A DNA stretch of 64,000 nucleotides from Steromphala cineraria. Taxonomy: Eukaryota > Mollusca > Gastropoda > Trochida > Trochidae. This document shows, piece after piece, positions 25,791 through 57,105 of this stretch. The stretch's first letter is position 1; each line of letters opens with the position of its first letter. The notes below the pieces were generated by a model. That model saw nothing but the letters and a program-made list of their open reading frames with translations, had not been told where the DNA came from and made no database searches. The stretch spans positions 68,836,471 to 68,900,470 of the forward strand of contig OU744720.1 of assembly GCA_916613615.1 (NCBI GenBank), written 5' to 3'. Position numbers and translations under genes: made by a program.

Positions 25791-25799
25791 TTAAGCTAA

Positions 25800-27993: not shown

Positions 27994-28464
27994 GTTCTAA
28001 AATAAATATCATAAAAAATAAGGATTTCAAAAGTTATAAAACAGTTACGACCTAATAAAAATACAATCCATATTTGCTTTTTTAAATATCTTCTCTCACA
28101 CTGTAAATGCAAAAGAACATAAAGGTAAGGATGCACACACACAAAGTTATCCAAGACGAATTTTTTTCTAATATGAAATATAAATTTATATAAGTTACAG
28201 AATAAAGACATCCTGGACTTGAGGTTCATGTAATCTTAGCGAAACCAAGAGTCAATGACTAGTTGTTATTCACAACACATTTGACCTAGAGACTGTAATA
28301 AAACTTCATACAAGGTATTGATAAAACACGGAATATAGATGATTTGAGTCTTGCTAAATTGAATCATTTCTTTTCGTAAGGCTACTCATGTGATGGTTCG
28401 ATGGAACTGACATGAAATATTCAATAAGATTACACAGCATTGACACCAATACTGAATTTGTTAT

Positions 28465-29345: not shown

Positions 29346-29384
29346 AATGTTTTCTGTTTATTATATAAATGAACTTATGATTGA

Positions 29385-29470
29385 TTATTTTATGATTTTA
29401 TACATGTACTGCTCTGTGAAATGTAGACTAGGCCTCCACTGCAAAGAAATAAATATGATAATGATAATTG
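29385..29470 (+). mobile_element. Possible non-LTR retrotransposon 3' end
   Basis: The string GTGAAATGTAGACTAGGCCT followed by CACTGCAAAGAAATAAAT and an ATGATA-rich tail resembles the 3' end of a CR1-like element with a short-repeat tail. A counterpart lies at 57710-57800 with a different tail composition. The call rests only on this end structure. Confidence 0.25.
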
Positions 29471-30844
29471 TGAATATACATGGGATCAACCAAAAAATAA
29501 CCATGTATAATACCATTTTTTAGGTGATAAGCATCTATAAATTAGGTACAAAAATTCAGATACCAAGTCACAAGAAGTGATAATTCTTTAAACATTCATG
29601 AATCATTCATCCTTTTGGTAATGATTGACAGAATCTGCCAAATGTACTATCATATATTTTCCGGTGCTATGCACTATACTTATGTCAGTAAACAAATAAT
29701 TTCAAATTGATCGACAATCATATTGATATGCTCTTTAGCCGTATATAGCATGTTGGTCTAACACACCAGGTACAAGTAATTATATTTAAGTCTGCACATA
29801 CGTCAACTGCTTTCTACGTTTCAACAGACAGTATTGCATATTGAAGCCCCGTTTACTTTAAACTATCGTAGAGGAAAATATTTCCTGCATTCTCCGACCT
29901 CTACTGACTCTGTTACAAATGGTTTGTAAGTGGAAGGGAGTTATCAATATTATTTTAAATAGGTCAGAACAGTTGTTCCACATTGTTAGCAAAATGTTGA
30001 AACATGACGTTTCATGGAATTGTGATTACTTGTATGATAAAGCATATATGTTCGAACCAAACTACAAGTAAGTAAAAAGGTATTTAAACAAAACGAACAC
30101 TGAATGGGTTTGCTGTCATAAAATAACCAACCAAACTGATGGGTCAATAATAAAGGCTAGTAGAGAAAGAGATTGTAGTAAATCGGTATATAAGCTGAAG
30201 GTTAGTCTGCCGTTCTGATGTAATTTGTTTTTTGGGTTTAGCTTATGCAATCATTAATGATATTTTGTCGAGTACAATATTTTCCTTGAGCAATGGTGTA
30301 AAAGTAATACAAATTTGAAACCATTATTGCATTTAGTGGCATTTCTTGGTTAACGTCAGACTGAATCATTGATTAACACTTGTGTGTGAGCGAGTAGCGA
30401 CATGTTTGGATATTCTGAGAACAGAAAAAGGCAGCCTACCTCTATAGATACATTTGTAACCATAATCTGCAAAAAGTTCATCACTTGCTTATTATGACGT
30501 TTGGTGTGTCAACTCTTTTTCCAAACGTTGCACCCATATTATCCTGAGGTGGGATTTAACGTTTGCAACACGTCAATGGCATTGATCTGTTTTTGATCTT
30601 CTGAGCACATTCATATCGCAATTTATGTTGTTTGAGCTGGCTATATTTGCCAGCTAACAACGCATCAACAACATTGGTCTGTTTTCGAATTCAGCTGCTA
30701 GTTTTCAGAATAGATCTTTGTTTATCTGCAGGTATTTGCTAATCTATCTATGCCTTATTGTATGTCCTGGAATCATCAGACGAAAAAAATGAGGAAGTAA
30801 TTATGTATATCACTAACAGTTTAATGGGTGAAGTAATGTCATTA

Positions 30845-31020
30845 AATTTCTAATGTTGGTGCCAAGCTGATATAATCCTTATCAATTCATTCTTCATTGC
30901 AGTCTATCAGAGCATTATCAGGCCGGTTAACATGGTCAGTTTCATGTTAGTAATAGAAGGACAACGGAACCACTGAATAGTACTTAACAATTGAATATGT
31001 GTCCACAGGTTATAATATGG
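30845..31020 (-). repeat. Dispersed repeat family R, copy 4
   Basis: On the minus strand it carries the family order (CTCTGATAGACTGCAATGAAG, ATGAATTGATAAGG, TTGGCACC). A near-identical copy exists at 59219-59370 because it lies inside the segmental duplication. Confidence 0.5.
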
Positions 31021-31599
31021 TAAACTGACACACAGTATATATCATTATCATAAGTTTAATAATTATATATCACAGTGAACCTAAATGAAGTTCATATTTC
31101 TCATCAAATTAAGATGCAAATGAAATGAAATTCAGCATTGGTCTATATTAAAAGTCATGTTAACTGTTTCAGGAAATATCTCTTGTTGAGCAGTCTACAG
31201 GGAATGGGTATGGTCTGATTCTTATCAAATTGGGAACAACGTAACAAAGGCATATCCTCAGTTATTTTTTGTTACTTTGAACGAGATAATTAATTTTGCT
31301 GTTAGTATGAAAAACGTGCACCTACCCATAGTTTTGTTATTGAAAGTATATTCATTATTTTTAATGATCACAGCCGGATAGGAGAAAACTGAAGCCTACT
31401 CTTTTACATAGCACAAGTTTCCCACCAATCAAATAACTGGATAGTGTTCCAACACAAACAGTTGTTTGAGATGCTGAGAAATTAAATTGAAGCAAGTGTC
31501 TCATGATTCTGAAGATTGTATTTGATGAGTATTACAACAACAGAACACCGTCTTTAAAAATACCACTAAGATTGAAGAATATTTTCCCATGACAAACAC

Positions 31600-31870
31600 A
31601 CGCTCGGATTTCCTACCCTGCTGTCTCTCTATGCCTGCATTATGTTCATTAGTTGAACTTATCTGCAGTGTTGGTGTGCCCTAAAGTATCTCTTAACTGC
31701 AATAACATTGCGCACATTTAACCACTTACCAATGTTTATTGTGTTCAAGTTGGAAAACATTCCAAGGGTTCTTTGTTATGAAATGTATATTTCTGCATAG
31801 CTGTTCACCCTTACTGAATCAAGTGATACTATTCTTCTATTTCAGAACAAAAACATTCACCTATCAACAG
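31600..31870 (+). repeat. Dispersed repeat family D, copy 2
   Basis: Closely matches 60095-60325 through the segmental duplication and 21830-22090 as an older copy (CTGCAATAACATTGCGCACA, AATGTTTATTGTGTTCAAG, GAAATGTATATTTCTGCA). Confidence 0.6.
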
Positions 31871-32454
31871 AAAAATACAATGATAAAACAAACCGATATG
31901 TAAATTGATATGCCTTATTCAGTGCAGGTGTTACATGTGACACTAATTGTATTTCAAAAGAAAAAGTTAAAGTTATCAAGTGCTACTGACTTAATGACTA
32001 AGATTTGATGTCTGATAATATACATAGAGTGACATTTTTAAAGAAGAGGATGTGTTATAGAGAGCAAATGTAGTTCGTTGTTTGCAAGTTACATGTGAAG
32101 TCAAAGTCAAAAGTTAGTGTATTCATACTCGTAATTACAAAAAGCACGTTCTTACAAAAGGCATGTTTAGTAATAAAAAAACATATATAAAATTACAAGA
32201 AACATAGAAAAGATGTAGATATTTGATCTACTTATTTCTACCTTTGTATTCCGCATCAAGTGTGTTTTCATCATGAGCACGGATTTTCACAGTAATTGAA
32301 CTTCAGATTTCCTGAAACTTTAGATATGCACGTTTCTAACATTTCAGTAATTTACTCCCTTTTCTAAATTAGGGTAGCTACAAAAAGTAGTCACTGAACA
32401 ATACATCAATGTTTAACTGACTTTTGACATAGAAACTCTTCACATATCTAGCAT

Positions 32455-32710
32455 TTTGCTCACTTCTTCCATGAGTGCCTCGTCAATCAACTGACAAGAT
32501 AGAGTTACAACACAAGCACCAGCTGAAGTCTGATAAGATGTTACACAGTTTTCCTCCTTCACACGCTATTGGAGAAAATAAACATCTCAACGGCTTGTAA
32601 AGCAATTATTGGAATTTTATCAAGCATAGTGTTATGCATACATGTATAAAGAGTCCTGGTAAATATCCTTCTTAACTGATAAGATATCTGATCGTTTAGC
32701 TAGAAAACAT
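32455..32710 (+). repeat. Dispersed repeat family E, copy 2
   Basis: Carries TCAATCAACTGACAAGATAG, ACACGCTATTGGAGAAAATA, TATAAAGAGTCCTGG and CTGATAAGATATCTGATCG. It follows family D (31600) at about 0.85 kb, the same order seen at 34245/34790 and 63042/63605. Confidence 0.6.
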
Positions 32711-33773
32711 TGCATGATATCGGAATTGATTATTAAATTATGAATGAATGTTGGTTATGTAAACGTTCATCATTATATCATGAGAGGTGCAAGCACACGT
32801 TGAAATTTGATCAGCAATGTAGTAATGTTTTTTCATCCGTAATAATGCAGATTCTTGGCCGATTTCAGAAATACAAAGCAAGTATTGTGGACCTTTAACG
32901 TTAGTTGTTATTAATTTCTTCTTAATTTAATAAAAGTCACATTTTAACAATTGTGATATTGATAGAATTTATCCTTTATGACAATTTCAAATTGTGATAT
33001 GCATTTGGAAGGTATGTGTCGTCTACTATCAATCAGCTCTAGTAATCAAATATACCCAAATGCATGTTTTCATGCTAAAAGAAACTAAAATGGTTACATA
33101 TCTTGTGATTTTCATAAGGACTGTACAATTTGTTGATACATGGCACATTTACTGCTATAGCTTGATTGATTTTAATGGTAACTGATGAAACATTCAACAA
33201 ATTTTAAAGATTCGTCTCACATACAACGTGAGTTCATGAGCAACTGACTGGGCTGTGTTACAAGACAAACACTGGCTTCAGGTGCAGAGAGGAAGCTGCA
33301 CACATTATTCGTACCTCCTTAGCCGATACATAACCAAATAACCAACAGATGGGAACTTTTATTTTACGCGTTGAAGCAAACGATTCTTACAAATATATGG
33401 CCCTGTTTTAGACGAAGCAATGACTATAAAGTCTGTTTCTATGAAAATGCGTTTTAATATCTTTATTGTTGGGTTTAATGAAATTTAAAAAAAAGTATAT
33501 CCAAAAACATTTCTTACTGGATTAACTTATATTTAGAGAAATGAAGTATTGAGTGACGTCGATTTAAATTCTAATTCCTAACATTGAATATGTGCTTAAA
33601 CAGCCAATAAGATGCATTAATCCATGGTGATGACTTCACTCTGTTGTGTTAAACGTGGATTATTTCTCATGAAACCACTGCTATGTGACTGGCTATGAGG
33701 GGTGTTAGGGTGTTAGGTAGTGTCTACTCAAATCCTTCAAGAACGACAATTCTAAAACAGTTTGATTTGAAAA

Positions 33774-34151
33774 TCAACTTTTGAAAGGTTGTAAGTCAAA
33801 AATCGACTCAGCACTATTATCCACAACGCTATGGAGGGCACACCTATTTACAGAGTTTGTGAGTATTTGAAACCGGTGTTGTTCATTTGACTGATGAAAC
33901 AGCAAGTACACGTTGGGAAATGCTAAACACGTGCAATGTACCACGCATGAGTTGTTGTTTGCATCGCCGTCGGGAATGAATTGCAATACACGTGGATGGA
34001 TGAACCATTTGAAGCGTTGCCTAAAGTTGTTTTGCATACATGTATCTAATGAGTGAGCACCGAAAAAATATTCTGTTTTATAGTTAAACGTGACAAATAT
34101 ATGTACAGGTAAAATATGGGGAAAAGACAGTGTTTTGTATGGTGACGTCAA
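33774..34151 (-). CDS. Hypothetical ORF of 125 codons, paralogous to the one at 62159-62548
   Basis: An uninterrupted minus-strand frame is retained in both copies of the segmental duplication. The two indels between them are multiples of three (6 bp and 18 bp), so the frame stays open. However, nearly all base differences change the amino acid, which is not what purifying selection on a protein would leave. No signal peptide, domain or recognisable motif is seen. The stretch between about 33900 and 34030 is GC-richer and unusually similar between the copies, so the conservation could equally be at DNA level. Treat as a candidate only. Confidence 0.15.
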   Translation of the reverse strand: MTSPYKTLSFPHILPVHIFVTFNYKTEYFFGAHSLDTCMQNNFRQRFKWFIHPRVLQFIPDGDANNNSCVVHCTCLAFPNVYLLFHQSNEQHRFQILTNSVNRCALHSVVDNSAESIFDLQPFKS

Positions 34152-34244
34152 ACATGGATTAAGATGTAGTATGCATTCGGTGTCGTGAATTCATGAAAGT
34201 GCTAATGATATATCATTAGTTGTTCTTTGAATGAGTTTTTGAAC

Positions 34245-34475
34245 TGTTTTCTCCATCTCTCACGTTTCTACTGGTTCATCTAGTCTGTGTACTGTTATGA
34301 CATGGCACACATTCGATCATTATGTTTTGCTTGTTCAAAGACGAAACCATTCAATAGACTATCTGTTATGTATTGTTTATTTGAGAATCGCGTTTCTTCC
34401 TCTAGTTAATTCATCAAAGTAATACTCCTGTTTTGTCTACGGAGTAAATAAATCTAGAAGCACTGTCGGTAAAAT
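34245..34475 (+). repeat. Dispersed repeat family D, copy 3
   Basis: A diverged family D copy (ACTGTTATGACATGGCACAC, CATTATGTTTTGCTTGTTCA, TATCTGTTATGTATTG). Matches 63042-63270 closely through the segmental duplication. Confidence 0.5.
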
Positions 34476-34789
34476 TCTGTGTTGATATTTATCTTAATTT
34501 CCTAAAAAAACAATCGTTTTTGTTCTGAATGGCACGCCTCATTAACTGTAAAAACAGTTTCATATTCCCGAAGTAAGTTGGCATACCTTACACCAAGTCT
34601 TGAACTGTAAATAAAGTTCAAAAGTAAAATGTAATGTTGTGATGATCATACTTTATTAAATGACTATTATAAACTAGGAACAAATACTGTCAATTTTTGG
34701 TCTATATTAGTTTGTATTTCAAATTCAAATATAATTTTCAATAATTCTCAAACGCTCTTACTGACATTTGACATTGAAACTCTAGATGT

Positions 34790-34970
34790 ATCTGGTATAT
34801 GTTTAATGAGTCATTGCTTGCCTCGTCAATCAAGATTGATTTACAACACACAAGCGAGCTGAAGTTTCGTAAGATGTAATACATACTTCCTCTTCAATAC
34901 GCTATTGAAGAATGATATAAATCTCAACTACCTGACAAGTAAATAGTTGACTATCATCAACCAATTGATA
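34790..34970 (+). repeat. Dispersed repeat family E, copy 3
   Basis: A diverged E copy (GCCTCGTCAATCAAG, TTACAACACACAAGCGAGCT, ATACGCTATTGAAG). It lies about 0.55 kb after family D and close to the end of the segmental duplication. Confidence 0.5.
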
Positions 34971-34999
34971 TTGGTTATTCAGGGCATTTCCTAGCTATT

Positions 35000-35900
35000 T
35001 TATAATATTCTTTACTTCCTTGTTTGTGGCTGTACTTTTGATTATCTATTAGATACGTTTGCATATCACATGCACAAATTGATGAATTTATGCATGTCAA
35101 TGTTGTAGATAATCAAAAGACTCCAGCTTTGCCAACTTTGCATACAGCTTCCTCTCTCACTTTTTACTTGAATGTCCCTGTGTGGAAACTACATTTATTT
35201 GAGTCCAATGTTCAATCTTCACTCTAATGTAAAATGATAGAATTTGAAATACCATTTTTCCTCAACTTTATTTGACATGCAACATGTAAGATAATATAGA
35301 ACATTTATTCACTCACAAGTTTTCCTTCATTCATGTGTAGAAGCCAGTAAATTTTAAAATTGAAAGGTATTTGGATATTCCTTTAGATTGTAAGGGAATT
35401 TAAGACAACTGTTCCCTTCCAATACAGTCTACACCAATTCCCGTAAGTAATTGTGTGATTGAGTTGAAAAATGCCACTGCTCAAATGGAGATGTCCTGCA
35501 AATGTCAATGTCATGTGTCAATGGACGATTTAAGGTCTAAGAATGGTGTCTGCTTACTCTCAAAAGAATAATTCTTGAGGGTTTTCTATCGAACCCCAGG
35601 GAAAGTCTGCTAAGTGAAATATCAGGAATCATAAATCAAACACGTCAACGGTTAGTCAATTGAACTATTTAGACCACTGTTGATTTGTGAAGCATATTTA
35701 TAACCTGAATGCATACTTGACAGTTAATTTCATGGATGTCAATCTTTAAACAAAACTGTAATGTTGAAAATAAACCCAAAGTGGTAGACTAAAACACAGT
35801 AGAAGGAAACCTAAAATTCGTTTACTATATCATTAAAGTGTTTATATATTTATTGCAACATGACATGTCGATTCTGCTCTATAGATTCAATGGGTCCCGT
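35000..35900. other. Spacer between duplicate copies, no gene recognised
   Basis: Begins where similarity to copy 2 stops. A small inverted repeat TTTTGATTATCT...AGATAATCAAAA spans 35037-35123. Otherwise nothing recognised. Confidence 0.4.
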
Positions 35901-37222: not shown

Positions 37223-37530
37223 TTCCTAGAGATGATATCTTCCCAGAGATGATAACTTCCTAGAGATGATAACTTCCTAGAGATGATAACTCCCTAGAGA
37301 TGATAACTTCCTAGAGATGATAACTTCCCAGAGATGATAACTTCCAAGAGATTATAACTCCCGAGAGATGATAACTTCCTAGAGATGATAACTTCCCAGA
37401 GGTGATAACTTCCCAGAGATGATAACTTCCTAGAGATGATAACTTCCCAGAGGTGATAACTTCCTAGAGATGATAACTTCTCAGAGATGATAACCTCCCA
37501 GAGGTGATAACTTCCCAGAGATTATCACTC
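37223..37530. repeat. 17-bp minisatellite, about 18 copies
   Basis: Tandem copies of AGAGATGATAACTTCCT with variation mainly at the last two or three positions (CCT, CCC) and at GATG/GGTG. The array starts TCCTAGAGATGATATCT and ends CCCAGAGATTATCACTC. Variant units are interspersed rather than sorted, suggesting repeated unequal exchange or slippage of multi-unit blocks. It is not a CRISPR array: the units are contiguous with no spacers. Confidence 0.95.
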
Positions 37531-43424: not shown

Positions 43425-44947
43425 ATAATTAAAAGTTCGTTTTGCACTACAAAATTAAACAGTTTTACTGTAAATTGTAACTCGAATTTTATCTACATTT
43501 ATTATATTTCTTTGATTAGAGGCTCTGTTATAAAAAGAAAGAAAAACAATTTCTGGTTTGCAATTGTCATAGTGTGAATTCACAAGATCGTCCTTCTGGA
43601 ACATGCAAGGTTTAAAGTAATGTAGTCCTATTGCTGTTGTAGGTAAATCTATCCTAAGAAACTAAGAAAACTCGGGTATCTATCAATAAAGATAGGAGAT
43701 TCACGTTTAAGCTTGTTATGGAAAGCAATCATGTTTCAAGACGAAGAATTGGAAAATTTGTTGAATAACATTGTTTTTTTTAAAGCTAAGTGAACTTTAA
43801 ACTTTTAAGATAATGAAGAAAATCATTAAATACACAATTTTAGCAATTAAGTACTCGCATTCCAAGTTTTAGATTAAGCTGGCTCCACAATAATACTTAT
43901 TGAACAACAAATCAATAGTTAATAACCTACTGACATGGACACTCCTAACACATCTAGCACTTCTTACAACTAATGCGCACCTTCTCAATCAACTGACAAG
44001 ATAGAATTACAACACAAACGGTAAATTAGATGATGCACAGCATTATCCTTAACGTGCTATCTCAACTGCTTGTTCAGCAATTACCGGACTATATCAAGAA
44101 AAATGTTATGCATATAAAGAGTCCTGGGTAATATATGATTGTTATCTGATAGCAAATTAACATAATGTCCACATTGATATAGTAAAGAATTTGAATCTTC
44201 TTAACTTTCATTAAATCCTGAGTAAATTTCATCTTTACCTTGAAGTTGTTTTTTTCTTACTGATAACGCATATGGTAAGATTTTCCAAAGGAGAAATTAC
44301 ACATGTTATAAATATGATTACCACTCTTTTCGGAGGATTTATGACGCAATACTTTAAACATTTGCTTAAAGAGGTATATGTGAGAACATGTTCACACTAT
44401 TTTACAAAAGTATAAGGATTTTACAAGTGGAGTCCATACTTTGTTTCAGATATTTCACAATTGCACTTAAAACGCTCCTTTGTCCCAATTTGAATATGTA
44501 CATGTATGTGACATTATAGTTCATGACATGACATCAGAAAACAAATTCGACCATAATTCATTTAACAATTTTGAGATGATGTGATATCTAAAACATACAT
44601 TTGTAGATCCACCATATTAGAAAGACATTTAGTATAATAATCAAAGAATTTCGTTCTAAAATTGTATTCTTTGACACTCATCAATCACAAGAAGATTTAA
44701 CAGCAAAGATATGTGAACATGGAGAATATCCAATAGATGCAGCTCTAACCTCTGTTCCAACTAGCCAAATACATGGGCAAGAAAGTCAAAGACCTGATTG
44801 GATGCAAGAATAGTTACACGTATTTGTGCAATCAGCAACGCCGTTTCAAAAGTGGTCATTTACAAAGCCTCATCATATCCGTATGTTTCGGTAAAACGAA
44901 TTTAACATCCAGGTGAGATAATTCTTCCTTTCACAAAACATCACTTA
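43425..44947 (+). repeat. Segmental duplication, copy 2, left part
   Basis: Matches 23715-23818 then 26513-27993 of copy 1 in the same orientation and includes its own copies of E (43945-44160) and F (44745-44890). It stops abruptly at the TTA (44945-44947) that borders the 12-kb element. Confidence 0.9.
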
Positions 44948-45120
44948 CACTGGGTGAAATGAAGATATTTATTACCTTTACAAGATATTTTTTTTTTTTT
45001 AATATCATCTTTACAATATATTTATTTCTGTGTAAATATCATCTTTAATCCTTTGTAAATTTTTGTAAATATTTGTAAATATTTGTAAATTTTTGTAAAT
45101 ATTTGTTAATATCATCTTTA
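44948..45120 (+). repeat. Left terminal repeat region of the 12-kb element
   Basis: CACTG terminus, then TTTACAAGATATTT at 44977-44990, then a short array of TTTGTAAATAT-type 11-mers (45050-45112) and the word ATATCATCTTTAAT twice. The mirror-image region is 56792-57026. The outermost bases are the likely transposase cleavage site. Confidence 0.75.
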
Positions 45121-46215
45121 ATCTGTAATGTAGACTTTGAAAGTAAAAAAATTGGTAAATGTTGACTTTGAAAGAAATATTTGATGAAATGTTGACTTTG
45201 GATAGAAATTATTTGTGAAAGGATGACTTTGGAAAGAAATAATTTGTGAAATGATATCTTTGAAAGAAATAATTTGATGAAATGTTGATTTTGAAAAGAA
45301 ATTAAGTTGAAATATTGACTTTGAAAGGTATTATTTTGAAGAAATGTTGGCTTTGGAAATTAATGATTTGATTAAATGTTTACTTTCAAAAGTAATAATT
45401 TGGTGAAATGATGACTTTGAAGAGAAACAATTAGTGAAATGATGACTTTGAAAACTAATATGTTTGGTGAAGTGTTGACTTTGAAAAGTGATAATTGGTA
45501 AAATGTTGACTTTAAAAAGAAATAATTTGATGAAATTTTTACTTTAAATATCAACAATTTCATCAAATGGTAACTTTGAAAAGTACAAATTTTATGAGAT
45601 GATCACTTTCAAAAGTGATGATTTCATGAAATGTTGACTTTGAAAAGAAATACAAGATGAATTTGTTGAGTTTGAAGAGAAATATAATTCTTCGAAATGT
45701 TGGCTTTGAAAAGAGATAATTTGTTTAAATGATGACTCTAAATAGGAATAATTTGGTGAAATTATGACTTGAAGAGGAATCATTTGATAAAATGATAAAT
45801 TTGAGGAGAAATAATTAGTGAAATAATGACATTGGAAACTAATAGGTTGGTGAAATAGTAAAAAAATGCTTTGAAAGTAAAAATTTGATGAAATGTTGAA
45901 TTTGAAAAGAAATAATTGGTGAAATGATGACTTTGAAAGGAAATGATTTGATGAAATAGTGACTTTGAAAAGTGATTATTTTATTAGATGTTTACTTTGA
46001 AACGTGAACATTTTATAAGATGTTGACTTATACGTTTTGTTAAATGTTGACTTTGGAAAGTAATAATGAATGATATGAAGACTTTGAAAACGTATAAGTT
46101 TGGTGAAATAATTACTTTGAAAAGTAATAATTTGATGACATTTTGACTTAAAAAAAGAAATATTTTGTGAAATTTGTGAAATGATGACTTAGAAAAGATA
46201 TAATTTGATAATTTC
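45120..46215 (+). repeat. Left subterminal array of ~32-bp units
   Basis: About 30 diverged tandem copies of a unit approximating TGATGAAATGTTGACTTTGA plus AAAGAAATAATT. Unit boundaries are clear from the regular recurrence of GACTTTGAAA and GATGAAATG. The same unit, reverse-complemented, makes up 54531-54835 and 56077-56790 at the other end. The open frames across this stretch are by-products of the period. Confidence 0.9.
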
Positions 46216-46261
46216 CTTATTTTAACTAATATGAATAATAAATACAGTGTTGAAAAATGAA

Positions 46262-46790
46262 AACAGCTTGTTGGAAATTATTTCCACTCATTAGGTTGTA
46301 GCTTAACGAATACACTTGCTTAATAACTCATTAGTCAAGGTGTTGATTGTCTATTGAGTGACTATGCTGTTACATAATCAGTTCGATGTATTCATTACGC
46401 ATTTAATGGGTGTTAATTTTTCAGATGGAATATTAACTTTTAAGGAAAATTTGATAATTTCAAATGTTGACCTTTTGTAAAACATAGACTTATAAAATCC
46501 ATTTTGTTGTTGAATGAAGATTTGTAATGGTGATATCGTTGAAACAATTTTTGATGAAAAATTAATCATGAGATACTGGAAATGTTTACTGTTGTCTTTA
46601 GTTTGTGAAATATTTTCTCATTTTCATAAGAAAAAGAAAAACTAATCACTGATTTGAGGAATCCGAACAGCTTACTAGAAGTAAAATTCCCCTCACTTGT
46701 AGGTAGCTTAACGAATACACCTGTTGGAATATCTCATTAATTAAGATGTTGATTGTGTATTGAATGGCAATGCCGTTAGCTCATGCTTGA
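46262..46790 (+). repeat. Pair of diverged direct repeats of ~115 bp
   Basis: 46262-46380 and 46680-46790 share AACAGCTT, TAGCTTAACGAATACAC, ATCTCATTA-like and GTGTTGATTGTCTATTGA-like words in order. They lie just before the retrotransposon fragment and appear to be part of the body of the 12-kb element. Confidence 0.6.
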
Positions 46791-47910
46791 TATGCTTCAT
46801 GGCTCAACGCCTGGATCAACTCTCAGCGTAAAAGCCTACCCTAGCACTGTTCATTGGGATCGACCATCTTGTATGCCGGGCAAATGTTGTTTTATGTATA
46901 TGGTGCTAATTTTTATGTATACGACATGTCAACATATCGCTGTAAACGCTGCAAGCCGGGCCTTAGGACTACTCATCTCCAAGTTTAAGATCCTCGGAGG
47001 AATGGGATATGACACCTACACCAAGTTATTTGACAGTATGGTTTGGCCAACTATTTCATATGGTGCAGCAATCTGGGGATCCCATGCACTTCCGGCTGTC
47101 AACGCTCTCCAGAAAAGAGCCATGCGCTTTTTCATTGGTCTTTACAAGTACTCTCCAAACTCAGCTGTGGCGGGTGATATGGGTTGGACACCACCCTGTG
47201 TGCGACAATGGGACATTGTCAACAGATTTTATAAACGCCTGTGTAACATCCACTCTGAGAGACTGTTATCCAAGGTATTTATGTGGGCAAACTCGAAGGC
47301 AGAGATTAAGAAGTACAACTGGAATATGAGAGTACACAGGAAGCTTACCAGTCTCAATCTGCAACATTTTATCCCTGTACATAATACTTTCCATGTTAAT
47401 TTTATATCCAGCGAGATCCGAGGCAAAGTGATGGAAGAGTATCTGAAGAAATGGAAGTGTGACCTATCAAGGCAGAACAGTAAACGAGGGGACTCTGGCA
47501 ACAAGCTTAGATTTTATCGAACTTTTAAATCTACTTTTAAACCTGAAGAATACATAACAGGCAATATTCCAAGGAGTCACCGAAGAGCCCTAGGCAGATT
47601 CCGCTGTGGCACCGCCCCGCTACGTATTGAAACTGGACGCTATACCAACACACCGGTTACCGAAAGAACTTGTTTTAACTGCCCCGACAGAATCGAGGAT
47701 GAGTCTCATGTTTTACTTCATTGCCCATTATACCATGATAACCGATCTGTTCTATTCAACCACTGTGATAACGTAAATGAAAATTTTAGTACTTTTACTG
47801 ATGTTCAGATAATATGTTTTATTATGTCATGCCCAGATATTGTCTTTTTAACTGCCAAAACGTGCAAGCTTATTTTACAGAAAAGAAAGTTTTTACTTTT
47901 TAAGAAATGA
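46783..47910 (+). CDS. C-terminal part of a non-LTR retrotransposon ORF2 (reverse transcriptase protein)
   Basis: A 375-codon open frame. Recognisable similarity starts around residue 53 (NAASRALGLLISKFKILGG) and continues through WPTISYGAAIWG (89-99), QKRAMRFFIGL (110-120), GDMGW (131-135) and a zinc-finger-like CX2CX8HX4C motif (C297, C300, H309, C314), the usual layout downstream of the reverse-transcriptase palm in animal non-LTR elements. The endonuclease domain and the catalytic (Y/F)xDD motif are absent, so this is 5' truncated and cannot be active alone. The first ~50 residues look unrelated and probably read through host or rearranged DNA; the annotated start is not a biological one. 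The frame is still intact, suggesting a fairly recent insertion. Clade not resolved. Confidence 0.85.
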   Translation: MLDMLHGSTPGSTLSVKAYPSTVHWDRPSCMPGKCCFMYMVLIFMYTTCQHIAVNAASRALGLLISKFKILGGMGYDTYTKLFDSMVWPTISYGAAIWGSHALPAVNALQKRAMRFFIGLYKYSPNSAVAGDMGWTPPCVRQWDIVNRFYKRLCNIHSERLLSKVFMWANSKAEIKKYNWNMRVHRKLTSLNLQHFIPVHNTFHVNFISSEIRGKVMEEYLKKWKCDLSRQNSKRGDSGNKLRFYRTFKSTFKPEEYITGNIPRSHRRALGRFRCGTAPLRIETGRYTNTPVTERTCFNCPDRIEDESHVLLHCPLYHDNRSVLFNHCDNVNENFSTFTDVQIICFIMSCPDIVFLTAKTCKLILQKRKFLLFKK

Positions 47911-48097
47911 TGTATATATTTGCTATTGCATAATATTTTTATTTGTGTAATCTTGTATATCTTTTAGTCTCTCATAACCCTTTCGGGTGGCTCACTTTTT
48001 ACACTTTTTATATTTGTATCATAATTTTATTGTAATGCTTTTTGTAAAAATGAGGTGAGACTTTAATAAAAAAATCTGTCTGTCTGTCTGTCTGTCA
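46930..48097 (+). mobile_element. 5'-truncated non-LTR retrotransposon with (TCTG)n tail
   Basis: Covers the reverse-transcriptase C-terminal frame, the stop at 47908-47910, a ~155-bp 3' UTR with a small hairpin (ACCCTTTCGGGT, 47978-47989), and ends AATAAAAAAATCTG followed by about five TCTG units (48077-48097). A short-repeat tail instead of poly(A) is normal for several non-LTR clades. It is nested inside the 12-kb element. Target duplications were not identified. Confidence 0.8.
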
Positions 48098-48145
48098 ACA
48101 TTTGCATGACACAATAATACAATAATTAAAAAAACATCTCATTGC

Positions 48146-49003
48146 AGTTTTTAATTTCCTGTCGGTGAGGTGTCCATCAATAGTTTATTGACGTTTACAT
48201 AAACACCTTACACTGCAATAGATCTTTAAAACTTGTTTGATTGTAAATGTGTTTATATGTTAAACATCATATAACCACAAACATATGTTGCTATTTTCTT
48301 TTGAATATAAGTATGTCTGATTAAATATTTTATAGTGTGTCAAAGGTTGATACTCAATTATGTTCAGTTTAGTAACTAAAGCCGTTTTTGAATGCCGACT
48401 TGATGGGCAGCTAGATCTGTCTCGCGACAGACCCCTGAATGCATGACTGGTCACACGCCATTTTTGAGACGTCATATATACAGAATGATTACAACGAGCT
48501 CTATACATCTATCTTAACGAGATCACCAAATAAACCCATTCATTAACGATTTTCAGAAAATGTTAAACACTCAGTTGGATAACACTATTAAGCGTTTGAA
48601 GTAATAAAGATATCAACATCACTTGTAAATAAACAATTATTTAAGGCGGTATTTCAGTTCAATTAATGATGCGCTAATCTATATAGTCTGTTTATTACGT
48701 CACACCCGCGCGAGTTTTATGGCCCCTATCTCAGGTAGGTTTTTTACAGCCGTTAACTACGCAGTCTTAATAAAAAGCTAATTGAAGGTTTTTATTGGAC
48801 AAATTGACAAAAAGCACACCCAGTTCTTATTTAGTTGAAATATCTTTGAAAGTAAATCGAAAAGTGATCGAGGTTAGCGTTAGTTTTTAATTTCCTGTCA
48901 GCGAGGTGTCCATAATTAGTTTCTTGACGGATACATAAAACACCTAATACTGCAATAGATCTTTAAAACTTGTTTTAGTCTAAATGTGTTTAAACGTTAA
49001 ATA
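48146..49003 (+). repeat. Direct repeat pair flanking ~620 bp
   Basis: 48146-48267 and 48881-49003 share TTTTTAATTTCCTGTC, GAGGTGTCCAT, TTGACG, ATAAACACCT-like and CTGCAATAGATCTTTAAAAC in order, ~735 bp apart. The stretch between (48268-48880) has no ORF of note. This could be a tandem duplication or the remains of an element with terminal direct repeats; nothing like LTR ends (TG...CA with primer site) is evident. Confidence 0.65.
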
Positions 49004-49026
49004 TATAGTAGGTATTAGAAATTGTC

Positions 49027-49262
49027 AATTTCAATTCAATTCATTTCAATTCTTTATTAATCTTATTTTACACAACTTATCGGCGGTTACATAAAGTGAT
49101 ACAAAAAGTGATACAGATGGACGGTGATTGCAGCGTAGATACATATGGAGAATGTACATTGTTACTTTAAGTACTTACTAACTAAGTAGTAACTAATGAA
49201 TTAAGATGGTATAGTTGATACGGCGCCGGATACCCCACCGGATCCTCACCCAGGCATAAGAG
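49027..49262 (-). mobile_element. Probable 3' end of a retroelement with (TTGAA)n tail
   Basis: Begins with TTCAATTCAATTCATTTCAA and TCTTTATTAATC, then a GC-richer body ending near CGGCGCCGGATACCCCACCG. Read on the minus strand it is a 3' UTR closing with a pentamer tail. It is similar in style to the 49-bp fragment at 27279. Confidence 0.45.
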
Positions 49263-49264
49263 TA

Positions 49265-50130
49265 GACAATAATGAAAGAATGAAAGGTTTTTCGTCATTT
49301 GGTGCATTCTCTACCTGATGTAGACCTATTGTTAGAAAAACCAAGTATTAAATAGTTAACATGATTTATCTAATGATTTTGAGAAATAGGTTGAATCAAT
49401 GAATTGATGATTTCATTTAATCAAATCATCTACTTAATACAACATATTTGTTAATTAATTAATCAACCATATAATCATAAGAAATAGAATTTCAAGATTT
49501 TATGTTCCAATCAGTTATCCTAAATGTAAAAGGTTTTTACATGTAGCTTTACACTTTTAAATAATATATTTATAACATATTTGCAAAAAAAGCGCAACCC
49601 ATGACCTCACTGACAATGAAAAAAGAAGCAATGGCAATCAAACATTGCCAAGATTCTACATGTCAAGGATTCAGCCAAAGGCTCGTTAAGTCTTCATGCA
49701 TGCATACCACTTTACTACCTAATAAACACAGTGTGTCACTGCACCTGTTATGTTATTGTTAGTGCAATAAACTAAATAATGAGAATCAAATATCTTTACC
49801 CATTAAAGGCTCATCGAATGTATTGTACAAACATCCTTTATGTGCCACACACACAAAAAATGAGGAGATAAATCCTAATTTCGTAAATAATGATTCTATT
49901 GAAATGTTAACTTTGAAAGCAATTAGGTTCAGTTGAATATTAACTTATTGTTTATGTTATTGTTAATCATAGTAAGGGTATTGATTCTGTGTTGTTTAAA
50001 ATTAGTGATCAGCAAGATATACTGTAGTACTTGTCTTTGTCTGGGTGACATATTCACATTGATAGTATATTACACTATATCATGTTACCATGTACATCAT
50101 GGTGTCACTGATATTTTGATTATGAAAGAC
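49265..50130. other. Body of the 12-kb element, no gene recognised
   Basis: Contains a lone ~32-bp-type unit at about 49893-49925 (ATTGAAATGTTAACTTTGAA), which ties this stretch to the 12-kb element. Frame 49933-50148 has no motif. Confidence 0.45.
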
Positions 50131-51600
50131 ATACTGCTTCATGTGTAAAATTTACCAATTCAAATTCAACAATATAATGTTGAGGCCACTTTGTCCCGTC
50201 AATGGGATATCAATGCTCTTAGCATCAATCTATAGTCTGCTACCTGCTCTGACTCCAATACCTGTCTTGTTAAGTTTAACGACATTCAATCAATAGATAA
50301 GATGATAATACATGAATATACAAACAATTTAATGTAACTACTTGACAATCAAGCTTGGAGAGTTTTAATCAATGTTTATCTTGGAGAAGTTAACGCTCAG
50401 ACAAAGTGAAAATTTGAAATTCTGACTTTCCAATATAATTGAATTTGGTGTACATTATTGGCTCTGAAGCTGTCATATTGTTCAAAGGTTATTTCCAAAG
50501 TATAGCCCGTATGAAAAAGGGCTATTTTGAGGGTTTATAATTTTGATGAAGTGTTTACTTTGAAGTATAGTTTGATGTTGTTGACATGCTAGTTCAGAAA
50601 AAAATGTTATTTGTGACGTTTAATCTATTTTTATTATCTATTTTTATTATGTAACCAGCGAGTGCAAGTTGAATAGATATCATTGTCTTTCAGTTTGTCT
50701 GTATTACAATTGTTGTGATAACTACTTTGTGAACATATTGATGATGTATTTTTTAAAGTTCAGCTTCATGGGCAAACGTATTGAGTAATTTTCATTTCAT
50801 GACTGCATATTTTTGAGAAAAATATTCTCAATGAGACTTTTTATTTGCAATGTTTCTGAAAGAAAGTTTACTTTGGATTATTTTATTTTGTAAATATGTA
50901 GCGTCAAAAACATTTCGATTTTGATAGACATATTCATTATTGTGTAAAATCTACCAATTCAAATGTTACCATATACTATTTTAGGCCCCTTCGTCCTGTT
51001 CAAGGGCAATCAATGCTATTTGCATCAATCTATCATCTGCTACATGCTCTGACTCCGATACCCTCCTCGTTAAGTTTAACGACATTCAATTAACAATAAT
51101 CTCAGATGACTATACCTGAATATACAAACAATCAACAAGCAACTACCCGACAATTAAGCTTGGCGAGTTTTCACTAAATGTATATCTTGGATTATAGAGT
51201 AACAATTATCAATCTATCATCTGCTACCTGCTCTGACTCCAATACCCTCCTCCCTAAGTTAAACGACATTCAATTAACATAAAGTTCACATGACTATACC
51301 TGAATATACAAACACTAAACAAGCAAGTACACGACAATTAAGCTTGGCGAGTTTTCACTAAATGTATATCTTGGGGTTTAGAGTAAAAATCAATACTCAT
51401 ACAAAATGAAAATATGAGTTCTGACTTTCAAATATATTAGGAATTAGGAAGTTGTTGACACTGAAGTTGTTATATTGTTCACAAGTGATTTCCAAAGTAG
51501 ATGCATCATAATTATTGGCTATATTAAAAGATGATACTTTTGATGAAATGGTTACTTTGAAATAAATTTGATGTGGTTGACATGCTAATTTTGAAAAATA
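50130..51600 (+). repeat. Left-arm ~180-bp B units and a ~0.8-kb tandem module
   Basis: Three B units at 50223-50385, 51022-51193 and 51208-51374 share TCTATCATCTGCTACCTGCT, CTGACTCCAATACCCTCCTC, AAGTTTAACGACATTCAAT, CTGAATATACAAAC and GCTTGGCGAGTTTTCA. The longer blocks 50130-50600 and 50930-51600 also match, each ending TTTGATGAAnTGnTTACTTTGAA then GTTGACATGCTA, so the module duplicated as a whole. Same family, opposite orientation, at 53321-54165. Confidence 0.85.
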
Positions 51601-53100
51601 TCTTGTTATATACGAATGCTTGTAAATATATCCTAAATCTGTTTACACGTGATGGGCGTGTTCTATATTTCTGGTGAGTAAGTCCTGTAACTTTACAGAT
51701 TAAACAGATTGACTTATTGTAGTTATATCTATATCCTTTTTAGCCCTGTATGAATTCTGCATATGATGTAAAATATGTATTTTGTATTAGTAATGTCAGA
51801 TCCGAGATGGTGTGAGACATTCAACAAAAGATAAAAACAAAATTTTGCTCTAACTGACCTATTGAAATGTTATTGAACCCACAAACATCTTATTAAACCT
51901 TTTATATAGAATGTCACATTATTAAATACTCAACTTAAAAGGGAATCTTTATGATACATTTTACGTACTTAAATCTCTACTTTGAAAAATAAATTCAGAA
52001 TGCAAAAACAACATTCCACCTTCACATGACAGAATAACAGATGCAAAGAGGATATTGTGCAAAAACGCAAATATTAAGTAAAAAAAGCAAACTGTGGGCA
52101 TGGAATAGACGGTGTTTCAATGGGTATTGAACAGGGGTGTGGCTACATGAAGACTTTTGTCCGATGAAAGCATATGCACGTGTTTGTTCTACGATTGCTA
52201 TGCTTCAATCAGTGGCGTGCATCTTGAGACAGTGTTATTTTAAGGTCAATCTTTTATGATAGTGATTTAATTTTTAGAGCCTGATTAGATATTTATTCGC
52301 GGGAGAATCAAACCCGTAGTAAAATCTAGATTCGACTTTTATTGATGGTTTGTCAAAAGACAATGAATTCATTTGATGACGATGTGGTAAATACATCAAA
52401 CTACATCACCGAAGTGACCTCATTGCAATACAAGTAGAAGCGATAAGACAAGAGGTGCTTTCAAGCGACTTATATATGTGAACTTTCTTATTGAGAGATA
52501 TGTGGCCCTCACGAGGAGGATCACCCTAATTTGCCACATATATTTCGGAGGTAAATAGTAAATTAATGAATATTGACGGATGCATTGTTATTATTTGTTC
52601 ATTCAGAAAAAGTCATCTAAGACTATGCTAACTGCATGTTGTTTAGGTATTGGAGAAGGAGAGGGTGAATAACAATCCATAGATTGATGAAAATAGCATT
52701 GTTTGCTCGCTAACAAGACAAAGTGGCTCATCTTATTATGGTTTGTCCATCTTATAGCAATGTATAATATTCATTACTTCCATCTTTAGATACGTTTATA
52801 TCACTGATATCATAAGAACATAAACAACTGCAGTGGATATTTTGAAAGAGTGTCAAAACCTGTCTACGCATGCTCCCATAATCAAACATGTTTATTTGTT
52901 TGGTTTTTTTTCTATGTAATTTTTTGTGTGATCTTCATGGTAATAAAACATTCATTCACTAATCAGTATAGCGTATTGTTTAACTGTACTCTTACAATAA
53001 TGTACTCAATGAAGGATTATTTTTCATTGGGAATGTTAACTGAATTCGAATATCTTTAAATATATTCTAAAAACATTAAAAAGAGACAACATACTTTTCA
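51600..53100. other. Central unique part of the 12-kb element
   Basis: Lies between the opposed arms and would be the loop of a giant foldback. It has no recognisable transposase or captured gene. A small hairpin ATATGTGGC...GCCACATAT lies at 52498-52546. The frame 52850-53059 is hydrophobic but unassignable. Confidence 0.5.
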
Positions 53101-53320
53101 TATTTATCAAAGTTAACTTTTAAACAACATCAAACTAAACTTCAAACTAAATATTTCATGAAAGTTATCATCTCCCAAAATAGCCAATAATTCAATAATA
53201 ATTTGATATTAGAATAAATTGAAAATAAACTTTGATCAATTTCAGAACATTTTAAGAATTTAAAAAAAAAATGAAAGTCGGAATTTCATATTGTCATTCT
53301 GTATGAGTGTTAACTTCTAC

Positions 53321-54165
53321 TCAATGCTCCAAGATAAACATTTATTGAAAACTCGCCAAGTTAAATTGTTTGGTAGATGCTTGTTAAGTGTTTGTATATT
53401 CAGGTTAGTCATCTGAGAGTTATGTTAATTGGATGTAGTTTAACTTAACGAAGAGGGTATTGGAGTCAGAGCAGGTAGCAGATGATAGATTGATGATTTC
53501 TATTTTATGCTCCAATTAAACTTTTATTGAAAACTCTCCAAGTTTAATTGTCGGGAAGCTGCTTTTTAAATATTTGTATATTCAGGTATAGTCTTTGAGA
53601 TTAATGTTACTTGGATGTAGTTTAACTTAACGAGGAGGGTATTGGAGTCAGAGCATGTAGCAGACGATGGATTGATGATTTCTATTTTATGCTCCAATTA
53701 AACATTTATTGAAAACTCGCCAAGCTTAATTGTCGGGTAAATGCTTGTTGATTGTTTGTATATTCAGGTAAAGTCATCTGAGATAATTGTTAATTGAATG
53801 TCGTTAAACTTAACGAGGAGGGTATTGGAATCAGAGCAGGTAGCAGACGATGGATTGATGATTTCTTCTCTATGCTCCAAGATAAACATTTATTGAAAAC
53901 TCGCCAAGTTTAATTGTCGGGTAGATGCTTGTTAAGTGTTCGTATATTCAGGTTAGTCATCTGAGATTTATGTTAATTGGATGTAGTTTAACTTAACGAG
54001 GAGGGTATTGGAGTCAGAGCAGGTAGCAGATGATAGATTGATGATTTCTATTTTATGCTCCAAGATAAACATTTTTTGAAAACTTGCCAAGTTTATTTGT
54101 CGGGTAGTTGCTTTATAAATGTTTGTTTATTCAGGTATATTCTTTGAGATTAATGTTATTTCTTT
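53321..54165 (-). repeat. Right-arm B units, five in tandem
   Basis: Reverse-complement copies of the B unit at 53321-53500, 53507-53681, 53687-53866, 53875-54049 and a truncated one at 54057-54165. Each holds GAAAACTCGCCAAG, TATTCAGG, TTAACTTAACGAGGAGGGTA and TTGGAGTCAGAGCAGGTAGC in order with a period near 183 bp. The last one stops at the MITE at 54170. Confidence 0.9.
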
Positions 54166-54169
54166 TTAA

Positions 54170-54526
54170 AGGGGCAGTAGCACGTTTTTTAATAATTTCT
54201 TATTTAAGATATTTCACTGATAATTGTGAGTTATTGCTAAATGTATTATATTGACAGTGCCAAAAATCTCATTACAAAAGCCAGTCATCCATAGTCAGAG
54301 GACAAAGTATGAAGATTCATATAAAATCCATTGGCGGCCATTTTTGTGTGAACACCTTTAATTCATTTTGTGTAAGAAAATGTCATCGCATGGCTAAACT
54401 TTACCTTATACATTTGAATTATTACTACTTCATTTAGTTTAAATACATTGTTTTTCAATTGGAACCATTAATTTTCATTTTCGTGACATCACCTTTTATT
54501 CCCCCTAAAAACGTGCTACTGCCCCT
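54170..54526 (-). mobile_element. TTAA-flanked MITE, copy 5 (inside the 12-kb element)
   Basis: Full length, minus orientation relative to the other four copies, with intact terminal repeats (AGGGGCAGTAGCACG and complement) and TTAA at 54166-54169 and 54527-54530. It sits exactly between the B-unit array and the ~32-bp array. It is nested, so younger than the 12-kb element. Confidence 0.9.
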
Positions 54527-54530
54527 TTAA

Positions 54531-54835
54531 AGTCAACATTTCATCAAATTATATATTTCAAAGTCAACATTTCACCGAACTATTACTTATCAAAGTAACA
54601 TTTCACCATTATTTCTTTTCAAAATCAACATTCAATCAAATTATTAATTTTCAAAGTCAACATTTCATCAAATTATTACATATCAAAGTAAACATTTCAC
54701 CATTATTTCTTTTGAAAGTCAACATTTCAAAAAAAATATTTATTTCAAAGTCACCATTTCATAATTTTTTCTCTTCAAACTCAATATATTTCATCAACTA
54801 ATAACTTTTTTAAATCAACATTTCATCAAATTATT
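54531..54835 (-). repeat. Right subterminal ~32-bp array, inner part
   Basis: Reverse-complement units (AAAGTCAACATTTCATCAAA plus TTATTTCTTTT) matching the left array at 45120-46215. Interrupted at 54836 by the 1.24-kb element and continued at 56077. Confidence 0.9.
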
Positions 54836-56076
54836 GGCCTAAGAGTAATTGAAGGGTCCGTATGACGGGGTGTCAAAAAGGACTGTTAACTGCAACCTAG
54901 CTCTTGAAAAAGACTCAATTTGGAATATTCTGAAAGCTGAGATACTTATCTATACCATGATATATGGAATGACACCATTGAATTTGGTTGCAGAAAGATT
55001 AATCACAATGAAATCACATAGTTTTCGAGTTTGGTTGCAGTCCCCTTTAGGCACCTGCAACCAAAATATTTTTCCAAGAAAATACATGTTTTTATCAAAC
55101 AGAAGAGCCTGGGCTTGAAGAAATTTGGTTGCAGATGGAATATATGATGATTTGACAACTGTTGATCACTTACCTGGCTTTTTATTTACATTTCAATGAC
55201 ACATAAGTCACTTACCGATCGCTATCGAGTCCGGTTTTCGATCATGTCACATCATGTTTTGAAAGTGTTTCTGACATTATGGATAGAAATATTTCACTGA
55301 CCTTGATTATTTTAACAGTTTCTATCATAAAGCATGTCATGGTAGGTACTTTTGACATTATTTGACCAAATTGATCCCTAAATTTCATTTCTGTGTTTCA
55401 ACGTGCTCCCATAGCGAATTCGAATTGTTGTCATATCTCAAAATGATTCTCATTGGCTGTCAGGAATCCCTTTAATTGCAAAATGATTTTGATAGAAAAT
55501 AAACATCATTGAGTAAGTTTAACAAATGGTTTCTATCCAAAAACAGAACAAAATCAATTATAAATCAAAAATTAGGAAATTTGAAAAATTGTTGGAAATG
55601 TTTGAGATTGAATCAACCAATTGTAGGACACGTTACATACCGCATGGCATTACGTCACTCACAGTGCGAGAGGGAATCTGTCAAAATGAAAATCCTGATT
55701 TGTTTTTGTTTTCACATAAAATTAGGTAAATTATAAAACTCCTGCAACCAAACTTGCCTCTTTGCTAATTAACAAGCAACTAAAATCTCTGCAACCAAAT
55801 TAGTGTTTGTCAAGACACGAAAAATGATGGATAATTGCTAGAAAATAATTTGGTTGCAGTTGCCTATAGGGACTGCAACCAAACTCGAAAACCACTCGAT
55901 TTCATTGCGATTGTACGTTCTGCAACCAAACTCAAGGCTTCAAGGAAATGGTTGATTTATAGTAAATCATTTTAGCTGTGAGAATATCTTCATTTCAATC
56001 ATTTTCAAGGAAAATGCCCCATTTTATTGATGTTTTAGATACCCCGTCATCCGGACCCTTCAATTACTCTTAGGCC
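54836..56076. mobile_element. 1,241-bp TIR element with 8-bp target duplication
   Basis: The ends are GGCCTAAGAGTAATTGAAGG followed by GTCCGTATGACGGGGT, answered on the right by the reverse complement with two mismatches over about 38 bp. The 8-bp AAATTATT precedes (54828-54835) and follows (56077-56084) the element; removing it restores one regular ~32-bp array unit, confirming the insertion. An 8-bp duplication fits hAT, P, Merlin or MULE-type elements; the termini do not let me choose. No transposase is present. Nine copies of TTGGTTGCAG or its complement are clustered at 54975-55135 and 55740-55935. Confidence 0.85.
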
Positions 56077-56790
56077 AAATTATTTCTTTTCAAAGTCAAC
56101 ATTTCACCAATTATTACTTTTCAAAGTCAACACTTCTTCAAACATATCAGTTTTCAAAGTCAACATTTCACCAATCATTACTTTTGAAAGTAAACATTTC
56201 ACCATTATTTATTTTGAAAGTCAACATTTCAAAAAAAATATTTATTTCAAAGTCACCATTTCAAAAAAAATTTCTCTTCAAGTTCAACATTTCATCAACT
56301 AATTACTTTTTAAAATCAACATTTCATCAAATTATTTCTTTTGAAAGTCAACATTTCACCAATTATTTCTTTTCAAAGTCAACACTTCTTCAAACATATC
56401 AGTTTTCAAAGTAAACATTTCACCAAATTATTACTTTTGAAAGTAAACACTTCATCAAATCATTAATTTCCAAAACCAACATTTCTTCAAGTTAATACCT
56501 TTCAAAGTCAATATTTCACCTTAATTCTTTTCAAACTCAACATTTCATCAAATTATTTCTTTCAAAAGACATCCTTTCACCAAATCATTTCTTTCAAAGT
56601 CTACATTTCACAAATCATTCATTTACAAAGTCATCATTCACCAAATTATTTCTTTTCAAAGTCAACATTTCTTCAAATTATTACTTTTCGAAGTCAACTT
56701 TTCACCAATTATTACTTTTCAAAGTCAACATTTTTCAAATTATTACTTTTCAAAGTCAACATTTTGCCAATTATCACTTTTCAAAGTAAA
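56077..56790 (-). repeat. Right subterminal ~32-bp array, outer part
   Basis: About 20 further reverse-complement units (CAAAGTCAACATTTC..., AAATTATTACTTTT). The plus-strand frame at 56184-56414 is a by-product of the period. Confidence 0.9.
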
Positions 56791-56791
56791 A

Positions 56792-56920
56792 AATAATCAA
56801 GGTAATAAATATCTATTAAAGATGATATTTACAAAACTTTACAAACCTTTACAAACATTTACAAAATAATAAATATCTTGTAAATATCATCTTTAATAGA
56901 TATTTATTACCTTGATTATT
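56792..56920. repeat. Perfect 43-bp inverted repeat near the right terminus
   Basis: Arms 56792-56834 (AATAATCAAGGTAATAAATA...) and 56878-56920 (...TATTTATTACCTTGATTATT) are perfect reverse complements around a 43-bp spacer rich in TTTACAAAC words. It belongs to the right terminal region of the 12-kb element. Confidence 0.9.
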
Positions 56921-57105
56921 TTTGTAAATAAGTACTTTAATCTTTGTAAATATCTTGTAAATAAGTACTTTACAAGATATTTAATCCTTTGTAAATATCT
57001 TGTAAAGAACTTCTTTTCATGCAGTGTTAGTACTAAATTGAATATATATAAATATATAATGAGTTACATAGTTATAAATCAGTTAATACAAGCAAAGTTA
57101 TCCAA

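Follow-up and report, generated by a model that had tools for sequence, protein, structure and literature searches.

CACTA (EnSpm) transposons are known by an anatomy that associates a 3-bp target-site duplication with subterminal repeats bound by a TNPA-like protein (PMC8978399, PMC2613891). The element considered here lies at positions 44948-57026 of a 64,000-nucleotide stretch of the Steromphala cineraria genome (hereafter the window; C1:68836471-68900470 of a 1.27-Gb genome), and is likely to belong to a giant, non-autonomous cut-and-paste family of the CACTA type that has a high copy number and was active recently. Maize Spm and the 20.5-kb soybean element Tgmt* resemble it by their CACT termini, short terminal inverted repeats, 3-bp duplication and many subterminal repeats (PMC2613891). 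Tgmt* has a 13-bp terminal inverted repeat with mismatches and 4 left and 24 right subterminal repeats, an example of the large size that a CACTA element can reach and of a single side bearing 24 such repeats (PMC2613891). Compared with these plant elements, the present family has CACTG termini, an arm of about 1 kb on both sides, inner inverted arrays of a 183-bp unit and an animal host, and no transposase has been found for it.

Other described systems share some of these features. Tetris of Drosophila virilis and Galileo (P superfamily) are foldback-like, with long inverted tandem-repeat arms and variable array length; Tetris is apparently non-autonomous (PMC4079207), and Galileo was recently active (PMC3573991). 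However, complete Tetris copies are described with 8-9-bp duplications and arm units of about 220 bp (PMC4079207), whereas the duplications here are of 3 bp. Among animal CACTA-like elements, the TRC group (including SmTRC1 of Schistosoma, an animal branch of Transposase_21) also contains an internal tandem-repeat region; a CCC core has been suggested for its termini, together with 2-bp duplications, the 2-bp repeat being seen in 7 of 14 copies (PMC1636069). Neither is found in the present family, which has CACTG termini, 3-bp duplications and no coding sequence. Chapaev3 elements have CAC termini and a 3-bp duplication, with TWA given as the target (PMC4079192), while the family described here has no strict target motif. 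Helentrons belong to the rolling-circle class. In an oyster Helentron with satellite-like arrays, the likeness is that of a non-autonomous mollusc element with internal tandem arrays (PMC7492417), but the family here bears a cut-and-paste signature with duplications.

In the window copy, the left end CACTGGGTGAAATGAAG starts at 44948 and the right end CTTCTTTTCATGCAGTG finishes at 57026. Fourteen of their 17 positions pair as inverted repeats, and TTA stands directly outside both. The CACTG/CAGTG ends, the 14-of-17 terminal match and the flanking TTA described in an earlier sequence-only reading were thus all found again, and its claim that 44948-57026 is a transposon is borne out by an empty site within the same window. 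The window contains a direct duplication of about 8-9 kb (26507-35020 versus 43546-63844, in pieces about 83-93% identical), and the match to the duplicate stops at 44942, immediately to the left of the element. When the element flanks are joined and aligned to the duplicate, a single TTA is read in the element-free copy. This natural empty site fixes both the element boundaries and the 3-bp duplication: one copy of the duplicated segment later received the element. Within the duplicate, the stretch from 27988 to 29351 keeps only 28162-28355 as a match. The features that define the insertion are the following.

44945-44947, unstranded: left target-site duplication TTA, present as a single TTA in the paralogous empty site.
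44948-44964, plus strand: left terminal inverted repeat CACTGGGTGAAATGAAG, found in 11 of 11 copies.
57010-57026, minus strand: right terminal inverted repeat, reading inward as CACTGCATGAAAAGAAG, from end comparison and a genome-wide 17-mer search.
57027-57029, unstranded: right target-site duplication TTA, from flank reading and the empty-site alignment.
26507-28360, plus strand: paralogous segment without the element, with the empty site near 27990 and one TTA.

The exact 17-base pattern covering both ends occurs at 324 places in the genome, as against 0 for a reversed-pattern control, which corresponds to about 160 copies, a count that may include alternative haplotigs (the C42 copy has a pattern of 183-bp arrays that is seen again on C45 and C48). 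Pairing was assessed on the first 100 of the 324 end matches, listed from C1 to part of C4. Among these, 88 form 44 opposed left-right pairs, each made of one GG-type and one CA-type end, and 12 are orphans; the pairs span 7,916-17,634 bp (median 10,737), none being shorter than 7.9 kb. Ten further copies were retrieved as 20-kb stretches, with both ends seen in nine of them, the C39 copy being longer, with its right end beyond the stretch. Including the window copy, the ten lengths are 7.9, 9.5, 10.7, 11.2, 11.7, 12.1, 12.2, 13.7, 13.9 and 19.1 kb. All ten further copies share the left end and left arm, and nine of them the right-hand counterparts, so that chance does not account for these ends and arms. 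With the first 151 bases as a query, 40 scored matches were obtained among 219 candidates, the other 39 at 97%, and the last 160 bases of nine other copies are 97.5-100% identical to those of the window copy. Over 1.1 kb of the core, ten copies (C39 not included) show 95.5-99.1% identity, which indicates that the family moved recently.

Perfect 3-bp duplications flank 26 of 30 copies (7 of the first 10, and 19 of 20 sampled at 60 bases per end), whereas mismatched partners give only 3 matches in 380 control pairings. The duplication is 3 bp and no longer in 19 of these 20 copies, the twentieth having none. The duplicated trinucleotide varies widely, without any strict target motif, and the 12-15 flanking bases differ in each of the 30 copies. 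The sequence-only reading would have been contradicted by a lack of other copies, or by similarity running past the ends into the flanks; instead, the ends are common to many places and the flanks differ everywhere. It proposed to look for more copies with TTA duplications; the same ends and 3-bp duplications recur, and only 5 of the 26 perfect duplications are TTA or TAA.

Some arrangements around the family are less regular. A single left end is followed by two right ends, at C1:32219211 and C1:32220025, which share one orientation and are separated by 814 bp. Two 183-bp arrays of the same pattern and orientation, C32:515651-517662 and C32:525068-527079, lie 9.4 kb apart and are tandem or duplicated family copies. 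At C4:20,649,141, a lone variant end retains 165 bp of right-end sequence (95.8%) before passing into unlike sequence, except for a repeat that family cores share at about 75-85%. With this unlike sequence and no Transposase_21 match within 12 kb, it was rejected as an autonomous partner and taken as a truncated relic.

Reading inward from either end, the 17-bp inverted repeat gives way to AT-rich repeats of TTTGTAAATA type, over about 150-220 bases, and these to an arm of 31-bp units, the consensus of which is near ATTACTTTTCAAAGTCAACATTTCACCAA (built from a part of the units and used for consensus only). Units were counted as matches to the 31-bp motif with at most 4 substitutions, taking the first 1.6 kb as the left arm and the last 3 kb as the right arm. 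Left arms hold 28-33 reverse-orientation matches in 11 copies, right arms 25-40 forward matches in the ten complete copies, and element middles only 0-2 forward and 0-7 reverse matches; a single wrong-way match was seen, in the left arm of the window copy. By best local matches, left arms are 92.7% alike between copies (45 pairs) and right arms 90.1% (36 pairs), while left and right arms are 76.8% alike within the same copy (9 comparisons) and 76.9% between different copies (72), the C39 arms and the interrupted right arm of the window copy being left out. Being no closer within a copy than between copies, the two arms look like old, separate lineages without mutual correction. Internal to them, the left array of the 183-bp unit holds 2.5-2.8 unit-equivalents in 9 of 11 copies and is lacking in the other two, and the right array ranges from 4.0 to 13.7 across the 11 copies. 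Differences from copy to copy concern mainly array length, internal deletion and nested insertions.

The arm repeat is not restricted to the CACTG family. Its exact 24-base motif occurs at 1,037 places in the genome (control, 0), and among the 91 matches listed on C1, 37 fall in CACTG-family copies, orphan-end copies counted, and 54 in six other clusters. Three of these clusters are mirrored over 8-16 kb and one within 1.1 kb. One of the six, at C1:72.6 Mb (C1:72599200-72609799, L085-L087), was read at its ends, placed at about C1:72,599,437 and, in mirror image, near 72,609.5 kb, over 800 bases on each side; the other five are located at C1:5.37, 14.67, 18.74, 22.98 and 58.16 Mb. It has inverted ends of about 290 bases with few differences between sides, lying outside the arms; these terminal repeats begin with ATATAATGCGTTCCGCG and run into ATTCCGACGGAATTTTTCCAATGG arrays. 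The family 17-mers are absent from the 800 bases on either side (a chance CACTG in the left flank has no right counterpart), and neither the window nor any of the 11 copies contains the terminal region itself. Nevertheless, the arm repeats match those of the family at 87-90% over about 71 bases. The target duplication is not readable there, as the junctions are ATAT on both sides; 2 kb of the interior contain apparent retrotransposon remnants and no Transposase_21 match. At this one opened cluster of six, therefore, the same arm repeat stands inside two kinds of ends. The view that the arms were expanded by tandem duplication agrees with their structure as arrays; as the 31-bp unit also occurs outside the family, however, the arms may have been acquired rather than grown in place. 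In the region of the 22.98-Mb cluster, C1:22983966-23000241, mirrored 31-bp motif clusters are found without exact CACTG ends, one side being 6.6 kb long.

The search for coding sequences and for a transposase partner relied on several approaches. With 120 Transposase_21 homologues, tblastn (expectation value, E, up to 0.01) gave no match in the 11 copies, while the positive control recovered 13 of 13 transposase loci. The core of the C6:35.5-Mb copy contains 28 frames that reach 45 codons or more, and none of them has a Pfam match above the cut-off, the weak matches being DUF6206 (the best, E 0.0098), IgG_binding_B (0.035), DExH18_N (0.055), DUF6686 (0.064) and Tic22 (0.11). Frames of at least 110 codons in the 11 copies are mostly arm arrays. 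Several others look like nested retrotransposons lacking long terminal repeats (non-LTR), those of the C35:5.49-Mb copy look, from their translation, like a FLYWCH/MULE-type transposase, and a few short ones have no assigned identity. The non-LTR nature of the insert nested in the C39 copy is confirmed by relatives that carry reverse-transcriptase domains. These are 45% alike or less over full or near-full length, the named ones coming from Ruditapes, Mytilus, Patella, Pecten and Lottia, and from bacterial bins (Sedimenticola, Thiodiazotropha). Taken by themselves, the protein relatives would suggest a mollusc host, probably a bivalve. The copies read thus have a core without recognisable genes apart from nested elements. 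The absence of a visible transposase and the description of a giant, non-autonomous, foldback-like member both hold for them, in size, lack of a recognised transposase and mirrored arms.

At the genome level, a profile search with PF02992 (Transposase_21) gives 60 matches, 59 of them over the cut-off; the closest named relative of one of the genome's transposases is from Haliotis, at 49%. The 13 loci compared (L029-L041) share nothing by blastn with the ten complete copies, except for a 37-bp stretch in L029 that matches near the tail of the retrotransposon insert of the window copy, and the related transposase gene with the same ends that the sequence-only reading proposed to look for was not found among them. 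Divergence of its ends, a location on other contigs or membership of a family outside these searches might each explain why a partner was missed. One 419-codon Transposase_21 frame occurs at 19 places in the genome, within a repeat of at least 6.6 kb that is 99.5% identical between L041 and L084 (C1:10.17 Mb and C1:25.54 Mb), and represents a very recently amplified family. Its three places on C1 and C2 lie 2.4-5.9 Mb from an exact end listed.

The copies examined show unit insertion, a 3-bp staggered duplication, asymmetric left and right ends, oriented arms and recent activity. As no transposase with these ends was found, membership of CACTA/EnSpm is drawn solely from the ends (CACTG, in short inverted repeats of 14/17 bp, where CACT followed by A or G is expected), the 3-bp duplication (26/30 copies and the empty site) and the subterminal repeats, which on either side comprise 31-bp arrays and AT-rich terminal repeats. 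Several observations weigh against this classification. The fifth terminal base is G and not A, although G at this position also occurs in the superfamily. Three of the first 10 copies (CTG/TGG, ACA/CTT, TCA/ATG) and one of the later 20 lack a matching duplication. No autonomous partner with these ends was found: 13 of the 60 Transposase_21 matches, those on the part of the genome whose ends are listed, come no nearer than about 130 kb to any exact end, with distances of up to 13 Mb. Finally, a 31-bp unit common to an element with unrelated ends fits poorly with a family-specific binding site. Placement in the CACTA/Mirage/Chapaev group is sustained by the CACT termini, the duplication length and the subterminal repeats, but not for Chapaev3. 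A non-autonomous Chapaev or Chapaev3 element is improbable: Chapaev elements likewise begin with CAC and make 3-4-bp duplications (PMC4079192), and the window copy itself has TTA, yet the rule given for Chapaev3, TWA between A and T (PMC4079192), is followed by no more than the five TTA or TAA cases. A foldback element of another superfamily (Galileo/P-like or Mutator-like), with coincidental CACTG ends, is quite improbable. Its hallmarks, as described for Tetris and Galileo (PMC4079207, PMC3573991), are present, namely long, internally repetitive inverted arms (here 77% alike between sides), no coding and variable array length, but this explanation is largely refuted by the 3-bp duplication, against 8-9 bp in Tetris. 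As for a segmental duplication or satellite-like repeat, the locus does sit in a duplicated region and its arrays resemble satellites; the empty site, the 3-bp duplications and the differing flanks refute it, and the 183-bp units among the matches listed on C1-C4 all lie inside six elements with paired ends, leaving it a virtually negligible probability.

More weight is due to the idea that older foldback-like arms and core acquired new CACTG ends, or that two families exchanged the 31-bp arm module. The 54 of 91 exact motif matches outside the CACTG family, and the near-identical inverted ends unrelated to CACTG around the same arm repeats at C1:72.6 Mb, speak for it, while it draws on one of six clusters opened at its ends; it is a real possibility, if not a probable one. 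The broader proposal, that the oriented 31-bp array is a portable module common to families with unrelated ends (CACTG in the one, with a 3-bp duplication, and ATATAATGCG in the other, where the inverted repeats measure about 290 bp), is tentative and rather doubtful. If true, the arms would be a mobile recruiting sequence acquired by different cut-and-paste systems. Several families could then depend on a single DNA-binding protein, or the enzyme of one family could be diverted by another. An arm unit common to different ends raises the question of whether transposons trade regulatory arms.

Under the CACTA-type classification, a DDE transposase of this type, encoded elsewhere, would cut the CACTG ends in trans. 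A transposon-encoded DNA-binding protein would occupy the oriented 31-bp units as putative sites and bring the ends together, as thought for TnpA in maize Spm, and unequal exchange would alter the length of the 31-bp and 183-bp arrays. Among non-coding DNA transposons it is usually short elements that spread, and the sequences required for movement are normally placed no more than a few hundred bases from either end. The large size here would be due to a movement signal that may itself be long, and to older and private insertions that ride along. As none of the 44 listed pairs is a short derivative, either movement requires the long arms and core, or large masters gave rise to a recent burst. 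With about 160 copies by end count, and with distinct left and right ends, the number of oriented binding sites in a CACTA-type system becomes testable. In the parts of the open-access literature covered by the search, no element was met that combines arms of about 30 units each with a lack of coding sequence and, among the listed pairs, of short derivatives.

The window copy also carries nested insertions. Its two opposed sets of subterminal arrays, already described from the letters, are confirmed by Tandem Repeats Finder (units of 32 bp at 45127-46173, and of 31-32 bp at 54529-54835 and at 56078-56787) and by inverted pairing of the arms, at 74% over 820 bp. That first description had missed the second, inner inverted pair of 183-bp-unit arrays, and the splitting of the right arm by a nested element.

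44948-45118, plus strand: left terminal zone of TTTGTAAATA / GTAAATATC repeats, with 97% identity between its first 151 bp and the other 39 scored matches.
45127-46207, minus strand: left arm of tandem 31-32-bp units, core TTTCAAAGTCAACATTTCA reversed, 33 tandem copies (28 matches at up to 4 substitutions).
46936-48092, plus strand: nested 3' piece of a non-LTR-like retrotransposon with a (TCTG)n tail, boundaries approximate and set by eye.
51024-51390, minus strand: inner left array, 2 copies of a 183-184-bp unit, from repeat finding.
53315-54161, plus strand: inner right array, 4.6 copies of the 183-bp unit, inverted to the inner left array.
54166-54530, unstranded: insert resembling a miniature inverted-repeat transposable element (MITE), flanked by TTTAAA/TTAA and having AGGGGCAGTAGCACG ends; all 11 copies carry it, the other ten at 97-99%.
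54529-54835, plus strand: inner part of the right arm, 31-32-bp unit forward, from Tandem Repeats Finder.
54836-56077, unstranded: nested 1.24-kb element with inverted ends GGCCTAAGAG... and an 8-bp duplication AAATTATT, splitting the right arm.
56078-56787, plus strand: outer part of the right arm, from Tandem Repeats Finder and motif counts.
56800-57026, minus strand: right terminal zone of TTTACAAA / GTAAATATC repeats, its last 160 bp 97.5-100% identical in 9 other copies.

The 365-bp MITE-like insert, being present in all 11 copies, is probably ancestral. The place of the non-LTR-like insert is uninterrupted in three other copies displayed, and no full match to it occurs in the 10 other copies; likewise, the 1.24-kb element was not found in them (C39 being incomplete on the right). 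The lack of coding sequence stands insofar as the copies read contain no recognised transposase, but a 376-codon open frame at 46780-47907, in the non-LTR-like insert, matches the reverse-transcriptase zinc-binding domain, though below the threshold (E 0.5).

Two further repeats were observed in the window. The AGGGGCAGTAGCACG-ended MITE family is represented at 912-1285, 3345-3718, 24819-25117, 25446-25795 and 54166-54530, with 82-88% identity between copies, its TTAA-like flanks being read at the last of these. A short tandem array at 37223-37529 shows a spacing of about 51 bp and its multiples, with units 85-91% alike.

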